A DNA stretch of 11,563 nt from contig DOZZ01000046.1 of the NCBI GenBank assembly GCA_003517725.1, positions 7,359-18,921 of the forward strand, read 5' to 3'. The translations under genes and the position numbers were made by a program. The number at the start of each line of letters is the position of its first letter. Within the stretch, counting starts at the first letter, position 1. The stretch comes from Bryobacterales bacterium. GTDB taxonomy: Bacteria > Acidobacteriota > Terriglobia > Bryobacterales > Bryobacteraceae. The notes below the pieces were generated by a model. That model did not search any database and had not been told where the DNA came from. It saw only the letters and a list, made by a program, of their open reading frames with translations. Of the stretch, positions 987 through 5,114 are shown piece after piece.

Positions 987-1025
987 GCCCGGGTGGCGAA
1001 ACCGGCAGACGCAACGGACTTAAAA
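987..1025 (+). pseudogene. 5' half of split tRNA-Leu(UAA)
   Basis: Acceptor strand GCCCGGG, a D-arm region (GCGAAACCGGCAGACGC), then anticodon-stem strand ACGGA and the whole anticodon loop CTTAAAA with anticodon UAA. The sequence then diverges: there is no variable arm, T-arm or matching acceptor strand CCCGGGC afterwards. These missing parts are found at 5065-5114, and the 7-bp acceptor helix between 987-993 and 5104-5110 is perfect. The gene was therefore cut by an insertion rather than decayed. Alone this half cannot make a tRNA. Confidence 0.93.
1011..1025 (+). repeat. Left attachment-site core (attL)
   Basis: GCAACGGACTTAAAA is identical to 5050-5064. The bases on either side differ (C before and G after here; T before and T after at the right copy), so the shared core is exactly 15 bp. 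It covers the end of the D arm, one anticodon-stem strand and the anticodon loop, a classic crossover position for tyrosine recombinases that use tRNA genes. Confidence 0.85.
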
Positions 1026-1069
1026 GTCCGATCGGGTCAGCCGTTGTTTCGTGCTACCTTTGAAACCGT

Positions 1070-1398
1070 GCGGGCGTGGCGGAATCGGCAGACGCATCGG
1101 ACTTAAGCGAAAGAACTTGAGTGCTCGTCGGGAAACCGGCGGTGCAGAGCTGCTCAAAGTCGGGGAACCCTGTAACATGGCGATCCCGAGCCAAGCCCGG
1201 CCCGAGTCAGGCCGGGAAGGTGTAGAGACTAGACGGGCAGCACCTAACATCCCGGAACCGTCCGGGACATGGTGAAGGGATAGTCCAGACCCCAAACCCC
1301 ATTGCGAAAGCGGTGGGCGGCGGCGAAAGCCGTGGACGGGTATGAAAATCCGTTGGACCGCAAGGTCCGTGAGGGTTCAAGTCCCTCCGCCCGCACCA
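1070..1398 (+). tRNA. tRNA-Leu(UAA) containing a group I intron
   Basis: Exon 1 is 1070-1104 and exon 2 is 1345-1398; spliced length is 89 nt. The acceptor helix GCGGGCG/CGCCCGC is perfect, the discriminator is A, and CCA is encoded. The variable arm is a 5-bp stem (GGACC/GGTCC) with GCAA loop, and the T stem is GAGGG/CCCTC. The anticodon loop becomes CTTAAAA (anticodon UAA) after splicing. The anticodon stem has an unusual U-U opposition at its outer pair (T27 and T43). The gene differs from the split tRNA in acceptor, variable and T stems, so it is not a recent duplicate. A T-rich stretch (1400-1408) follows it. Lying 44 bp inside the element, it is presumably the functional substitute for the gene the element destroyed. 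Confidence 0.94.
1105..1344 (+). ncRNA. Group I intron (IC3-like) in tRNA-Leu(UAA)
   Basis: A 240-nt intron inserted after U34, the position of the well-known cyanobacterial and plastid tRNA-Leu introns. It ends in the required G (1344). GAGT at 1119-1122 can act as the internal guide, pairing with exon bases ACTT (1101-1104) with a U-G wobble at the splice site. The core strands are present: Q-like ATCCCGAGCCAAGCC (1183-1197), R-like GTAGAGACTAGACGG (1222-1236) and S-like AAGGGATAGTCC (1275-1286). P7 forms between GACTA (1227-1231) and TAGTC (1281-1285). Several GAAA tetraloops cap small helices, for example at 1131-1134 and 1324-1327. No homing endonuclease ORF fits, as is usual for this class. 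It is expected to self-splice with guanosine. Confidence 0.92.
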
Positions 1399-1422
1399 AC
1401 TTTTCTTTGCCCTCGCTTCGAA

Positions 1423-1459
1423 GCCGAAAGACGGCGGGTCACCATGATCCCGCTTCGGC
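1423..1459. other. Stem-loop between converging genes
   Basis: GCCGAA (1423-1428) pairs with TTCGGC (1454-1459), and GCGGG (1434-1438) with CCCGC (1449-1453), leaving a 5-base bulge and a 10-base loop. It lies between the rightward tRNA and the end of the leftward methyltransferase gene. There is no U-tract directly after it on either strand, so intrinsic termination is not clear; it may be a barrier or 3'-end protection structure. Confidence 0.35.
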
Positions 1460-1530
1460 GTAGGGGATGGCACCATTCCGCGCAGGGCAAATTCCCTTTG
1501 AACTGTCGGGCAATCTCTCCGCCGTGATCG

Positions 1531-2241
1531 TCAGGATGAAGAGTGCAACGAAGACGTGGCCAATCCTTCCCTTGCCGAACCGGGAGACGGCTTGTCCGCC
1601 CGAACACAGAGAAACGCCGCGCCGACCGGGCTGATTCTGGACAACAAGCTGTCGAGAGGCACCAGCCACTTCGCGACCAGCCGCGACGGCTGATAGTACA
1701 CGCCTCCGCGCACCGCGCCGAATTCCAGATGACCGGATTGCACCAAATGGCGAAGTTCGTCCGTTGTCCAGAAATGCGCTTCCCGCGCCAAGGCCCAGAG
1801 GCTGTAACGCCCTAGTTCCCCGATCACGACGATGCCGCCGGGCCGCAGCACACGCGCCATTTCCTGGACCGCTGCCGCGCGGTCGGTCACCCAGCAGAGA
1901 ACAGTCACGGCGATGACCACGTCGAACGACGCCGGTTCGAAGAGGAGCGCCTCTGCGCGACCTTCGCGCCACTCCACGGACACGCCCGCGGCGCTGGCGT
2001 GCCGGCGCGCCGCATCGAGCATCGCCGGGGAAATATCAAGGCCCGTCACCGTCGCGCCCAATCGCGCCGCATGAATTGGATAGGCGCCGTCACCGCAGCC
2101 GACATCGAGGACTCGAAGACCGGCCAGGTTGCCGGCGAGCGTGAATACGGCTTCTTTCTCAAGAGACTCCGTCCGCGCGCCTAATTCGGATTCCCGCCAG
2201 CGGGCGTAAGCCTCGGGGCGGATCGCCGTCTCCTTGCCCAT
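1531..2241 (-). CDS. Class I SAM-dependent methyltransferase
   Basis: A 236-residue protein of the Rossmann-fold methyltransferase type. Motif I is VLDVGCGDGAY (44-54), an acidic residue after the second strand (GLDIS, D69) should bind SAM ribose, FDVVIAVTVLCWV (106-118) is the motif IV region, and LRPGG (132-136) is typical of the UbiE/Methyltransf_11 group. The substrate cannot be read from the sequence. It starts 10 bp after the DsrE-family gene and is the last gene of the leftward sulfur cassette, so a small thiol, sulfide or metal/metalloid substrate is possible, but that is inference from context. The tail after about residue 215 is low in motifs and rich in Ser. Confidence 0.85.
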   Translation of the reverse strand: MGKETAIRPEAYARWRESELGARTESLEKEAVFTLAGNLAGLRVLDVGCGDGAYPIHAARLGATVTGLDISPAMLDAARRHASAAGVSVEWREGRAEALLFEPASFDVVIAVTVLCWVTDRAAAVQEMARVLRPGGIVVIGELGRYSLWALAREAHFWTTDELRHLVQSGHLEFGAVRGGVYYQPSRLVAKWLVPLDSLLSRISPVGAAFLCVRADKPSPGSAREGLATSSLHSSS

Positions 2242-2251
2242 GCCCGCTTCC

Positions 2252-2602
2252 CTAAAAAACGATTACCCGCTCCGCGTCCTGCGTCCATACGGCCAGCTCG
2301 TCGAGCGTGCTGCGATGCGCGCCTTCGGCCAGCGCCTCCGCCTTGAGACCGCGGCCGTCCATGCACGTCCCGCAGACACCGATCTTGCCGCCCTTCGCGG
2401 CGAGGGTTTTCAGCATCCGTTCGATGTTGTAATAGCCGTTCGGCGTGACCTGGCCGCTCGCGCCGCACGACGCCGCGTCCCCTATGAGAAACACCGAAAC
2501 GGCGTTCCCTTCGGTCTTGGCCAGCGCGTTCGCCAGCCGCAGGCCGTTATAGCTGCGCTCCGTTCCATACGGCGGGTCGTTCAGGATAAAGACGTATTTC
2601 AT
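2252..2602 (-). CDS. DsrE-family sulfur-carrier-like protein
   Basis: A 116-residue soluble protein of the DsrE/DsrF/YchN-like fold. It opens with a beta strand MKYVFILNDPPYG, has SVFLIGDAASCGASG around 36-50, and a Cys motif GVCGTCMDGRG at 75-85. Cys46, Cys77 and Cys80 are candidates for carrying persulfide; in related proteins a Cys in this region passes sulfane sulfur to or from rhodaneses and TusA-like partners. AAGGAG ten bases before the ATG supports the start. It sits 22 bp after the sulfide:quinone reductase-like gene and 10 bp before the methyltransferase, clearly in one transcription unit. The partner may be the rhodanese domain of the upstream regulator or a host protein. Confidence 0.82.
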   Translation of the reverse strand: MKYVFILNDPPYGTERSYNGLRLANALAKTEGNAVSVFLIGDAASCGASGQVTPNGYYNIERMLKTLAAKGGKIGVCGTCMDGRGLKAEALAEGAHRSTLDELAVWTQDAERVIVF

Positions 2603-2624
2603 TTATATTGCGCTCCTTGTGGTG

Positions 2625-3866
2625 CTAGATCGCGACCGGAATTCCGTATGCCTTACCGCCCGTTTTGAGCAGCGTTGCGTAGAACTCGCGCTTCCAGCCC
2701 GGCGGCGTGAGCCACCATTTCTCGAACAGCACCTTGCCGATGTGCCAGGCCCTCCCGATTTGCCGCAGATTCACCAGCGGCGCGGGCTCGGCGAAGAAAT
2801 TGCCGTAGGCGATACCGGCCAGGTCCTCTCCCGCCTCCAGCATGCAATACCCATCCCCGCAGAACTCGCTCCGCGGCTGACTGCCCGAGATTTCAGCGGC
2901 GATCCGCGCGGCCACGACTTCCGCCTGCGCATGCGCAAAGACCCCGGCTTTCGGCAGCATCATCGGGACATCGGGCTTCCATCGTCCGGGGATCGAGACG
3001 GCCGTCGCGTCTCCGATTGCGTAAACCCTTTCCGATTGCGTCGCCAGCGTGTGCGCGTTGACGGGGACCCAGCCCGCCGGATTCGCGATCCCGGCATCGC
3101 GCAGAACCGCAGACGGCCGGTGAGGCGGAATCGCCACGAGCAGGTCGTAGGGGAACGCCTCGCCCTGCTGGAAGCGCAGAGTTCGAGCATCTGCATCGAC
3201 CGTCGTGAGCGCATGAAGCGGGTGAAAGCGAATGCCCTTCGACTGAAGCATTTGCTCGACCGCCGCGCCGAGTTGCGGACCGGCGACCGGCATTGGTTGA
3301 GGCTCCGGGGTGAACAGGTGCAGCTCGCTTTTCGCGGAGAGGCCCCGTTTCCGCAAGTAATTCGCGATGAGCATTGCGCCCTCATGGGGCGCGCCCGGAC
3401 ACTTGTAGGGCATCGCGGCGACCACGACTGCAACCCGCCCGCCTGAGAACCGCGCAAGAACGTCTCTCAGTCGCGCCGCCCCTTCAAAGGTATAGAACGT
3501 CTCCGCGCCTTCCTTCAGGCCAGGGACCGCTTCCGGCGCGAGTTCGGCGCCGAGAGCGACGATGAGGTAGTCATAGCCGATATTTCCGGCCGTCGTCGCG
3601 ACTTGCTGCCCGGCAAGATCGAGTCCCTCCACGCTGCCATGAACAAATTCCACGCCTTGCTGCAGCAGCTTCGTCAGGGGCCGCCGGATGTCCTCCGGCC
3701 TGCGATCCCCCGTCATCAGCCAGAGGAACGACGGCGCAAAGGCATGCTCCGCGTTTCGTTCCACGAGCACGACGCGGTGTTCAGCGGAGAGCTTCCGGCG
3801 CAGATCGTTCGCGGCAACAATGCCTCCCACGCCGCCGCCGAGGATCACAACCGTTTTTGAAGCCAT
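2625..3866 (-). CDS. Sulfide:quinone reductase-like flavoprotein
   Basis: A 413-residue two-dinucleotide-binding-domain flavoprotein. The FAD-binding start is VVILGGGVGG (6-15), and the second FAD signature is VYAIGDAT (281-288). Cys156 in YKCPGAP aligns by motif with a conserved catalytic Cys of sulfide:quinone reductases. FCGDGYC (335-341) supplies the C-terminal Cys; the third Cys seen in some types (near 128) is absent, where the sequence reads FYTFEGA. The C-terminal region (370-395, with EKWWLTPPGW) could give membrane-surface attachment. The likely reaction is oxidation of sulfide to polysulfide with transfer of electrons to quinone. An upstream in-frame ATG exists, but AAGGAG eight bases before 3866 fixes this start. 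It lies 52 bp after the regulator gene. A flavocytochrome-c-like or NADH dehydrogenase-like role cannot be excluded. Confidence 0.85.
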   Translation of the reverse strand: MASKTVVILGGGVGGIVAANDLRRKLSAEHRVVLVERNAEHAFAPSFLWLMTGDRRPEDIRRPLTKLLQQGVEFVHGSVEGLDLAGQQVATTAGNIGYDYLIVALGAELAPEAVPGLKEGAETFYTFEGAARLRDVLARFSGGRVAVVVAAMPYKCPGAPHEGAMLIANYLRKRGLSAKSELHLFTPEPQPMPVAGPQLGAAVEQMLQSKGIRFHPLHALTTVDADARTLRFQQGEAFPYDLLVAIPPHRPSAVLRDAGIANPAGWVPVNAHTLATQSERVYAIGDATAVSIPGRWKPDVPMMLPKAGVFAHAQAEVVAARIAAEISGSQPRSEFCGDGYCMLEAGEDLAGIAYGNFFAEPAPLVNLRQIGRAWHIGKVLFEKWWLTPPGWKREFYATLLKTGGKAYGIPVAI

Positions 3867-3918
3867 AGTTCTTTCTCCTTGGTGGCCCGACGCCCGTCTG
3901 ACAGGAAACGTCTGAAAT

Positions 3919-4578
3919 TCATCTCGGTTCCTCGCCGGCGACAACCGGAAAACCCTGCGCACGCCATTCTGGAACGCCGTCTTCCAGCCGCATCGCCCGG
4001 AAGCCTTTCGCGCGAAGCGTTTTTACGGCTTCAACCGCCAGCACACAGTACGGACCGCGGCAATAAGCCACGATTTCTTTTCCGCGCGGGAGCTTCGAGA
4101 GGCGCGCGGTCAATTCTTTCAGCGGCACCGAAATCGCGCCCGAAATGTGCGCGGCCCGATATTCTTCCTCGGGACGAACATCGAGGAGGATGACTTCGCC
4201 CTTCCGGATGCGGTTCACCAGCGTCTTCTTCTCCACCGGCTCCAGGGAATCCGGCGCTTCCCTGAACTGCCGCAGGATCGAATCGACTTCGGCGAGCCGT
4301 TTCTCCCCGAGCGATCGCAGGGTTTGGAAGAAGGCGCAGACAGACTCATCCGCCAGCCGATATGTCACGAACAGGCCCGCCTTCTCGGTTTCCACCAGCC
4401 GCGCGGCATGCAGGACGCGCAGGTGTTGCGACGCGTTCGCCACAGTCAGGTCCGCCTCGCGTGCGAGGGTTTCGACCGTTCGCGGCCCCTGGCAGAGCAG
4501 ATCGAGCAATTCGAGCCTGGCTGCGGTGGCGACTGCCTTGCCCAACCGGGCCAGTTGTTCGTAAAGATCTTTTTTCAT
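3919..4578 (-). CDS. ArsR-family regulator fused to rhodanese domain
   Basis: A 219-residue two-domain protein. Residues about 10-95 form an ArsR winged helix (LLDLLCQGPRTVETLA, then ANASQHLRVLHAARLV as the recognition helix region). Residues about 115-212 are a rhodanese domain with VILLDVRPEEEY (129-140), HISGAISVPL and the active loop CRGPYC (173-178). Cys173 is the expected persulfide-bearing residue. Two further Cys, C29 and C81, lie in the DNA-binding domain and might sense sulfide or persulfide, though their spacing is not an obvious match to BigR/SqrR. The fusion suggests that persulfide state and repression are linked in one protein. It precedes the sulfide:quinone reductase-like gene and is the probable repressor of the inverted-repeat promoter at 4841-4870. 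Its start ATG overlaps the stop of the decayed upstream gene (ATGA). Confidence 0.9.
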   Translation of the reverse strand: MKKDLYEQLARLGKAVATAARLELLDLLCQGPRTVETLAREADLTVANASQHLRVLHAARLVETEKAGLFVTYRLADESVCAFFQTLRSLGEKRLAEVDSILRQFREAPDSLEPVEKKTLVNRIRKGEVILLDVRPEEEYRAAHISGAISVPLKELTARLSKLPRGKEIVAYCRGPYCVLAVEAVKTLRAKGFRAMRLEDGVPEWRAQGFPVVAGEEPR

Positions 4579-4793
4579 ACCGTTGTACCCTTACGTTGAC
4601 GTGTTTCATACATGACGGTCGCCACAAATTACGCCCGACAGGAACGTCAGAGCGCCGATGGCGCCGATAGCCCATCGCACGCCGAGGGCGTCCGCGAGGC
4701 TTCCGGCGAGCAGGGCGCCGACCGCGTATCCGCCGTCGCGCCAAAGCCGATAAACAGCCATTTTTGCAGGGTCTCGACATCGACGTTTTCCAT
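4575..4793 (-). pseudogene. Remnant: rhodanese start joined to MFS transporter end
   Basis: From ATG 4793, with GGGAG upstream, the reading is MENVDVETLQKWL, typical of the first residues of a rhodanese domain. A frame change then leads to VYRLWRDGGYAVGALLAG, a recognisable piece of the last transmembrane region of a major-facilitator transporter (VYRxWRDxGYAxGA). Near the end a single extra T in an ATTT run shifts the frame. Without it the protein would end in VMYETRQ and stop in an ATGA overlap with the regulator start. So a deletion fused a rhodanese gene start to an MFS gene end, and a 1-base insertion followed. The intact ancestor was probably the first part of this operon. Not expected to make a working transporter. 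Confidence 0.7.
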
Positions 4794-4840
4794 GTGTTGA
4801 ATCTCCCGTTGCGGGCCTGTACTGGCAAACCCACTATAAA

Positions 4841-4870
4841 AGTATTCAATAGATTACTTGAGTATGTCAA
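4841..4870 (-). promoter_or_regulatory. Sulfur-cassette promoter with embedded operator-like repeat
   Basis: On the minus strand a perfect -35 TTGACA (4865-4870) is followed after 18 bases by AATACT (4841-4846), a four-of-six -10. The spacer and edges contain TACTCAA - 8 bases - TTGAATA (4843-4864), an imperfect inverted repeat with six of seven positions symmetric. A repeat of this size lying between -35 and -10 is where an ArsR-type repressor typically binds. Transcription would run left into the rhodanese/MFS remnant and then the ArsR-rhodanese gene, so autoregulation is likely. Binding is inference. Confidence 0.6.
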
Positions 4871-4977
4871 GCCGATCCGTCAAGGGGGACACGCCGTGGT
4901 AATTGCAGGCTCCAGGCGGCGCGGCTTACATGGCTGGTAAGATGCGGGTTTGGCGAGAGATTTCAAAAGGGCGAAAT

Positions 4978-5029
4978 TTACACAGTTCCTTACACAGTTT
5001 CACAGTTCCAGAATGTAACCATAACTGTG
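4978..5029. repeat. CACAGTT repeat cluster beside the right junction
   Basis: CACAGTT occurs at 4981-4987, 4993-4999 and 5001-5007, the first two within a longer TTACACAGTT unit, and inverted as AACTGTG at 5023-5029. The stretch is AT-rich compared with its surroundings and ends 20 bp before the 15-bp core. Position and iteration are what one expects for arm-type binding sites of a tyrosine recombinase or of an excisionase. No such cluster is seen at the left end. Function is inferred from placement only. Confidence 0.5.
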
Positions 5030-5049
5030 CCAGTTACTTACAGGTTAAT

Positions 5050-5064
5050 GCAACGGACTTAAAA
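5050..5064 (+). repeat. Right attachment-site core (attR)
   Basis: Second exact copy of GCAACGGACTTAAAA. To its right the tRNA continues naturally (TCCGT completes the anticodon stem), and to its left is element sequence ending TTAAT. The element's circular site, rebuilt from both junctions, would contain CGGACTT-AA-AAGTCCG, a perfect 7-bp palindrome. Confidence 0.85.
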
Positions 5065-5114
5065 TCCGTTTTCCGGCAACGGAAGTGCGGGTTCAAGTCC
5101 CGCCCCGGGCACCA
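5050..5114 (+). pseudogene. 3' half of split tRNA-Leu(UAA)
   Basis: After the repeated core come TCCGT (anticodon-stem strand), a variable arm TTCCG-GCAA-CGGAA, the T arm GCGGG-TTCAAGT-CCCGC and the acceptor strand CCCGGGC followed by ACCA. The acceptor strand pairs perfectly with 987-993 and with nothing suitable just upstream here. The sequence preceding the core (5030-5049) does not supply a D arm, so this half is also non-functional by itself. Confidence 0.92.

Follow-up and report, generated by a model that had tools for sequence, protein, structure and literature searches.

A non-autonomous cassette that splits tRNA-Leu(UAA) in a Bryobacterales genome and carries an intron-containing replacement tRNA gene

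We analysed a stretch of 11,563 nucleotides (the window) from the Bryobacterales assembly GCA_003517725.1 (contig DOZZ01000046.1, positions 7,359 to 18,921), in which a 4.0-kb insert between 1011 and 5064 interrupts the tRNA-Leu(UAA) gene and brings with it a second tRNA-Leu(UAA) gene that contains a group I intron. The insert is non-autonomous and belongs to a set of cassettes that lack an integrase, some of which stand in tandem. We think it probable that these cassettes belong to a widespread tyrosine-integrase family whose elements replace the split target tRNA rather than rebuilding it, the intron splitting the attachment core in the DNA. We observed the split gene, its replacement, the linkage of the replacement to integrase genes, the recurrence of this arrangement and, in most hosts examined, no other copy of the gene. 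An earlier interpretation of the window (the sequence-only reading) had described the split gene and its intron-bearing replacement; it did not extend to the absence of the integrase here and its presence in relatives, to the non-autonomous nature of the cassette or to the spread of the unit across phyla.

When 987-1025 and 5065-5114 were joined, ARAGORN called a canonical, perfect 89-nt tRNA-Leu(UAA), as the sequence-only reading had claimed. A 15-bp core, GCAACGGACTTAAAA, lies perfectly conserved at both ends of the insert (1011-1025 and 5050-5064), inside the split tRNA. The 5' half continues into the left end of the element and the 3' half lies 4 kb away, confirming the claim that the element destroys the gene without rebuilding its target at the junction. 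The second, whole tRNA-Leu(UAA) gene at 1070-1398 starts 44 bp inside the left core; its 240-nt intron sits between U34 and A35, and the spliced exons fold to a tRNA-Leu(UAA) in ARAGORN, so the proposed replacement is indeed carried. The spliced anticodon arm restores 14 of the 15 core bases, and the idea that the core is restored in the RNA holds to that extent and not for the full 15. The parts concerned are as follows.

987 to 1025, plus strand: native tRNA-Leu(UAA), 5' half with the core at its end (attL side); ARAGORN, together with 5065 to 5114
1011 to 1025, plus strand: left copy of the core, anticodon stem and loop; perfect repeat
1026 to 1069, plus strand: left end of the cassette, 44 bp, with a conserved stretch TTCGTGCTA..TTGAAACCGT that recurs in relatives and is a putative promoter
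1070 to 1104, plus strand: 5' exon of the replacement tRNA-Leu(UAA), last base U34; ARAGORN and locus parsing
1105 to 1344, plus strand: group I intron, 240 nt, with terminal G; sub-threshold match to RF00028 and covariation among relatives
1345 to 1398, plus strand: 3' exon of the replacement tRNA-Leu(UAA), including CCA; ARAGORN and locus parsing
5050 to 5064, plus strand: right copy of the 15-bp core; perfect repeat
5065 to 5114, plus strand: 3' half of the native tRNA-Leu(UAA), including CCA (attR side); ARAGORN

With search settings relaxed, the window intron matched RF00028 from end to end with 34.8 bits (gathering score 50; E 3.5e-7). Introns of relatives exceeded the gathering score in 4 of 12 loci scanned (L340, 61.8; L338, 58.2; L364, 53; L268, 50.1), and 22 of 53 predicted pairs changed on both sides among 28 introns, a set picked by a pattern that required a terminal G and hence no evidence on that base. 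The last base of the intron was G in 15 of 16 aligned loci, the exception being a relic in G045 (genomes, contigs and loci are given by our G, C and L numbers). That relic, L080 (G045:C282, 2909-3090), has lost most of the intron core, and its tRNA probably no longer splices. Joining the exons in silico completed a tRNA-Leu(UAA) at 45 of the 46 loci parsed (52 positions tried, 6 without a parsed exon); the sole failure was G006, where the intron tRNA has lost its 5' acceptor strand and a whole native-type gene adjoins. Neither gene of the window was found by ARAGORN without its intron option or by Rfam at gathering score, RF00005 missed the replacement, and ARAGORN with the intron option found it but read a tRNA-Ser; such genomes therefore seem to be without tRNA-Leu(UAA). 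We rejected a match to the LOOT RNA (RF03000) at 1241-1334, which overlaps the intron in its 3' portion and scores 37.4 bits against a gathering score of 46.4. Pieces of such introns may account for some LOOT members.

No tyrosine integrase gene was detected in the insert by open reading frames (ORFs), Pfam profiles or a search with the integrase of relatives. We class the element as non-autonomous because the integrase missing here is present in relatives such as G254 and G405. The order in the autonomous form is split 5' half, integrase (about 394-418 aa), intron tRNA, and this order was seen in G254 of the same family. Among 18 intron-tRNA genomes from other families of the class, a split 5' half and then a whole integrase precede the intron tRNA in nine (G405, G512, G399, G540, G474, G442, G333, G458, G331), pieces of one were found in three (G528, G348, G424), and six gave no close integrase match; in the first copy of G512 the integrase is broken. 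We found these integrases by reading the stretch between the split half and the replacement. They match PF14659 above and PF00589 below the cut-off, a PF00589 search did not list them, and no solved structure matched the integrase by sequence. Right ends with the core and the native 3' half were read in G512, G399, G458, G348, G442 and G540, and the core of G512 is longer than the 15 bp of the window.

We then read 600 bp downstream of the integrase at 81 loci, comprising the best 80 of at least 376 integrase relatives in named genomes and one viral-contig relative (three were found; the other two are distant and were left out). The upstream target was scored by pattern, and 13 of the 81 loci showed none. 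The loci lie in Acidobacteriota, Pseudomonadota and others and include the isolates Maricaulis alexandrii LZ-16-1 and Pelagibacterium luteolum CGMCC 1.10267. At 34 loci with a split tRNA-Leu(UAA), 30 had an intron tRNA-Leu(UAA), two ended with the contig and two had no replacement; the intron is thus present in 30 of the 32 UAA loci with enough sequence, across phyla. At 19 loci with a split tRNA-Leu(CAA), nine had an intronless tRNA-Leu(CAA), ten had none and none had an intron; one of the ten, L384, has what looks like a decayed tRNA. A replacement was found in none of 15 loci with an intact Arg, Phe, Met, Asn or Lys tRNA upstream. Intronless tRNA-Leu(UAA) genes follow the integrase in L327 and L366. 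UUA has no decoder other than the UAA tRNA, whereas UUG can also be read by the UAA tRNA. This would explain why elements in UAA genes almost always carry a replacement and those in CAA genes often do not.

In a tree of 62 intron rows, Pseudomonadota and Acidobacteriota are intermixed, with many weak inner branches. Of 16 cassettes, 14 fall into one clade, which also contains the autonomous G254 and four further rows; those of G253 and G090 lie elsewhere. These two, L126 (G253:C470, 1577-1876) and L073 (G090:C52, 16513-16796), share the common left end and have introns of another clade, which suggests that their intron or tRNA was replaced by recombination. Distances between integrases correlate with those between intron tRNAs over 28 distinct loci (r 0.72, 0 of 10,000 permutations) and within Pseudomonadota alone (11 loci, r 0.67, 36 of 10,000 permutations), in tests that ignore shared ancestry.

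The right end of the window cassette holds repeats of TTACACAGTT, typical for integrase arm sites and presumably serving as such. With up to three mismatches, the right-end motif occurred in 12 of the 237 genomes of the family, and the backwards-pattern control gave 0 among the rows listed. The motif also marks insertions in tRNA-Leu(CAA), such as a 61.6-kb island in G059 (C198, 40271-101850; L190, L191, L192, L176) that carries a type IV secretion system (T4SS) coupling protein and a ParA-like protein. Its 394-aa integrase lies between the left core and a replacement tRNA-Leu(CAA) that lacks an intron and has an altered anticodon stem. The integrase of G254 is 88% identical to it and sits between a split tRNA-Leu(UAA) and an intron tRNA. 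Locus L130 (G213:C119, 3243 and 11733) has a different integrase at the same tRNA-Leu(UAA), with the 5' half duplicated and an intact gene at the right end.

Searching the 237 family genomes with 987-1399 of the window gave matches in 35 at E 1e-12 or better. Relic or partial matches of this and another search (G045, G107, G020, G254:C75, G284:C344 and others) were set aside. Thirteen genomes besides the window's own matched across both the 5' half and the intron tRNA. The split 5' half is clear in nine (G088, G296, G272, G271, G294, G252, G090, G253, G284) and decayed in three (G261, G246, G002); in G006 the gene there is whole. The search of other genomes that the sequence-only reading had called for, for an intron tRNA near a 5' half, thus turned up 12 of 237 besides the window's own, three of them decayed. 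The native 3' half follows downstream in G000, G272, G294, G252, G246 and G006 and stands on a second contig in G253 and G296. The inserts of the family span about 1 to 9 kb with mostly unrelated genes, for example an RND efflux set in G252, a glyoxalase-type protein in G246 and a protein kinase in G296; some cargo is common to G294 and G006, and to G088 and G258. Tandem copies occur inside single contigs of G088, G253 (C470) and G258, and also in G512. They meet at a core and not inside the replacement gene, and the junction of right end, core and left end was read in the tandems of G088 and G253.

The cargo of the window looks like a sulfur-metabolism set (ArsR-rhodanese, sulfide:quinone reductase-like flavoprotein, DsrE) with an added methyltransferase, as judged from profile matches. 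The remaining features of the insert are listed here.

1531 to 2241, minus strand: SAM-dependent methyltransferase; PF08241, E 1.4e-29
2252 to 2602, minus strand: DsrE-family protein; PF02635, E 1.2e-26
2625 to 3866, minus strand: pyridine nucleotide-disulphide oxidoreductase, sulfide:quinone reductase-like; PF07992, and NF049943 at E 6.3e-74, below its cut-off
3919 to 4578, minus strand: ArsR-type regulator fused to a rhodanese domain; PF01022, PF00581, and NF033788 above its cut-off
4931 to 5049, plus strand: right end of the cassette as far as the core; matches the right ends of relatives
4977 to 5004, plus strand: direct repeats TTTACACAGTTCCTTACACAGTTTCACA found by motif search, candidate arm-type sites

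A 51-aa ORF at 4606-4761, beside the right end and without a Pfam match, is possibly a gene remnant.

The window lies on contig C81 of a 3.9-Mb metagenome-assembled genome (MAG) of 326 contigs. RF00005 gave 35 hits in this genome, and ARAGORN read Leu tRNAs with the anticodons UAG, CAA, GAG and CAG. No other tRNA-Leu(UAA) was found with RF00005, ARAGORN or a pattern for the intronless gene in this 81% complete MAG, in agreement with what the sequence-only reading had expected of a whole-genome check. Over all 65 genomes with an element, a relic or an intron tRNA, we found no intact intronless bacterial UAA gene in 57, with a pattern that allowed up to two mismatches, which a more diverged gene could escape, and with some genomes incomplete. 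G545 was counted as lacking the gene; its sole copy, on an AT-rich, organelle-like contig, was set aside. The contig in question (L419, G545:C79) carries an AT-rich tRNA cluster in a Phenylobacterium MAG and looks like organelle contamination.

We propose that tyrosine-integrase elements of this family enter tRNA-Leu genes at the anticodon arm through site-specific recombination. As the element would have only the short core in common with its target, insertion would split and kill tRNA-Leu(UAA). The element would then bring a complete tRNA-Leu(UAA) of its own as replacement, immediately after the integrase gene or, in integrase-less cassettes, immediately after the left end. In the replacement gene the intron after U34 would split the attachment core at the DNA level and leave the integrase unable to insert or recombine there, and self-splicing would rejoin the anticodon arm in the RNA. 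The window cassette may have moved by means of an integrase provided in trans by an autonomous relative; mobilisation in trans is suggested by G272, which combines an integrase element at tRNA-Leu(CAA) with an integrase-less cassette at tRNA-Leu(UAA).

Because the core is the anticodon arm itself, an ordinary replacement gene would be a new target. We compared arms in 13 elements, 12 of them readable on both sides, and in four (G512, G399, G442, G540) all 25 of 25 nt agree between the spliced arm and the native site, which leaves the intron as the sole difference between the two. All nine intronless CAA replacements differ from the target stem by at least 1 of 8 nt (mean 2.56). Intron replacements differ less (mean 1.39 of 8 nt, n=28, four identical; L310 and L313 not parsed), with a one-sided p of 0.007 that, like the permutation tests, takes no account of shared ancestry. 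The tandem copies, which join at a core and not in the replacement gene, point the same way. From these comparisons we infer that the intron hides the replacement from the recombinase, and the shield proposed in the sequence-only reading stands on that comparative footing. The main rival, which we hold to be somewhat unlikely, has the same element and replacement and regards the intron as a neutral passenger from a captured intron-bearing tRNA-Leu(UAA) gene, with stem differences giving the protection. It is conceivable since tRNA-Leu(UAA) is a classic intron host in cyanobacteria, and it would account for the intronless replacements at 9 of 19 tRNA-Leu(CAA) loci, the intronless tRNA-Leu(UAA) of L327 and L366, and the intron genes of G120 and G146 with no integrase match nearby. 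In the window's family, moreover, replacement and native arm are 1-3 of 17 nt apart in the six elements read, and such differences might be sufficient without an intron. A mere passenger fits poorly with the four elements that differ from their native site by the intron alone, with the presence of the intron at nearly all UAA loci across phyla and with the greater stem change in intronless replacements.

Two further readings concern the origin and the retention of the replacement. That the intron tRNA is an ordinary chromosomal gene beside which elements landed by chance or homology is very improbable in our view. It could appeal to G025, G011, G032, G120 and G146, which have an intron tRNA with no split gene beside it; the sequence-only reading had named relatives of this kind, if they lie at the window's place, as evidence against itself, and relatives with this layout (among them G025, G120 and G146) do exist. 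However, 30 of 34 UAA loci have the intron tRNA downstream of the integrase, as against none of the 34 loci with a split CAA gene or an intact tRNA; the intron tRNA varies with the integrase; and at four loci without an adjoining split gene (G118, G090:C50, G528, G424) remnants of an integrase lie just upstream of it. On this linkage we rejected a stand-alone intron gene with a neighbouring insertion. The idea that the replacement is kept mainly since loss of the element kills the cell, in the manner of a toxin-antitoxin pair, we consider unlikely. UUA codons need tRNA-Leu(UAA), the intron tRNA was the only such gene found in the 57 genomes above, and in G006 the replacement has decayed and no longer folds where a whole native-type gene adjoins. 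Precise excision, on the other hand, would restore the native gene, so that clean loss would be harmless and only imprecise loss lethal, and the replacement may be just the cost of using the site. Chance or misassembly was rejected as unlikely, since identical junctions occur in many separate assemblies; on this recurrence the junctions that the sequence-only reading had wanted checked are taken as genuine.

Several observations weigh against a family of elements that replace their target under cover of an intron. The window's own genome gave no match to the family integrase at E 1e-40 and only two PF00589 hits, one with an internal stop, which leaves the proposed mobilisation in trans to the evidence of G272; the window intron scores below the Rfam gathering value, and the MAG is incomplete. 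L333 and L375 have a split tRNA-Leu(UAA) without a replacement, two of the 34 loci (in L375, Rhizobium pisi, the opposite strand has an intron match at a distance of about 5 kb). The native remnant of L361 and L375 extends beyond the anticodon arm towards the T arm, and the crossover there was therefore not at the anticodon core. G333:C9 (L279) has a CAA target and a UAA-type intron tRNA, cut by the contig end. An intact intronless UAA copy is present in 8 of the 65 genomes, namely G006, G258 and G264 from a set of 25, G333 from a set of 20, and G546, G548, G549 and G556 from another 20. Three of the nine intronless replacements differ from their target by just 1 of 8 nt, and the small arm differences within the window's family and the neglect of shared ancestry in our tests belong here too. 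A search of the 237 genomes with the M20 peptidase that adjoins the insert revealed no empty site bearing the window's own flanks: the 30 loci retrieved for its best matches, own included, all lacked a tRNA. A comparison of flanks with 32 intact-tRNA loci gave no common surroundings apart from G006 matched to itself and some weak matches; one of the weak matches lies on another integrase next to the tRNA.

Like the introns of cyanobacterial and plastid tRNA-Leu(UAA), and like RF00028, the introns described here have the U34/A35 site, a group I core and a terminal G. Unlike the cyanobacterial and plastid introns, they are borne by an integrase element, next to its integrase gene, in Acidobacteriota and Pseudomonadota. 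The cassettes resemble integron gene cassettes in being small units with mostly unrelated cargo, tandem arrays and a recombinase encoded elsewhere, and differ from them in that the core is a tRNA anticodon arm and each unit has a tRNA gene.

Our comparisons with published elements refer to the available excerpts of the papers cited. With tyrosine-integrase islands the family shares an integrase (in its autonomous members), an anticodon-arm core, end repeats and a target fragment at one end (PMC4383910). In Islander-type islands, the target is rebuilt at the junction from a fragment in attP, whereas here it stays split and a separate whole tRNA is supplied (PMC4383910). Archaeal integrative elements likewise use tRNA genes as sites with crossover in the anticodon loop, but their integration restores an uninterrupted copy of the target, which is not the case here (review PMC8371274). 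Randau and Soell suggested that archaeal tRNA introns block integration and protect the host (cited in PMC3293823), and for an archaeal element whose attP held an intron an advantage to the integrated element was proposed (PMC3293823). The notion that an intron at the attachment site blocks integration is common to that proposal and ours; the difference lies in a bacterial element with a whole separate replacement gene and a group I intron (PMC3293823). Tycheposons, compared by description, are also cargo elements with a tyrosine recombinase at tRNA genes, and the excerpt describing them has no intron replacement tRNA (PMC10872708). Our searches of the open-licence literature turned up no description of a bacterial element whose replacement tRNA contains a group I intron.

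tRNA-targeting elements, as far as the excerpts of PMC4383910 and PMC8371274 describe them, otherwise leave or rebuild a whole tRNA gene; this family breaks the gene and replaces it, which makes UUA decoding in the host dependent on the element. The finding assigns a self-splicing intron a specific selective role that can be put to the test, and it places the idea of integration-blocking tRNA introns in bacteria. We give an even chance to the wider proposal that the intron is a recombination shield, that the element kills an essential tRNA and becomes its sole supplier, and that a unit of recombinase and intron tRNA spread between Acidobacteriota and Pseudomonadota and gave rise to integrase-less, integron-like arrays. 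If this is true, many bacterial tRNA-Leu(UAA) introns outside cyanobacteria would be element-borne.

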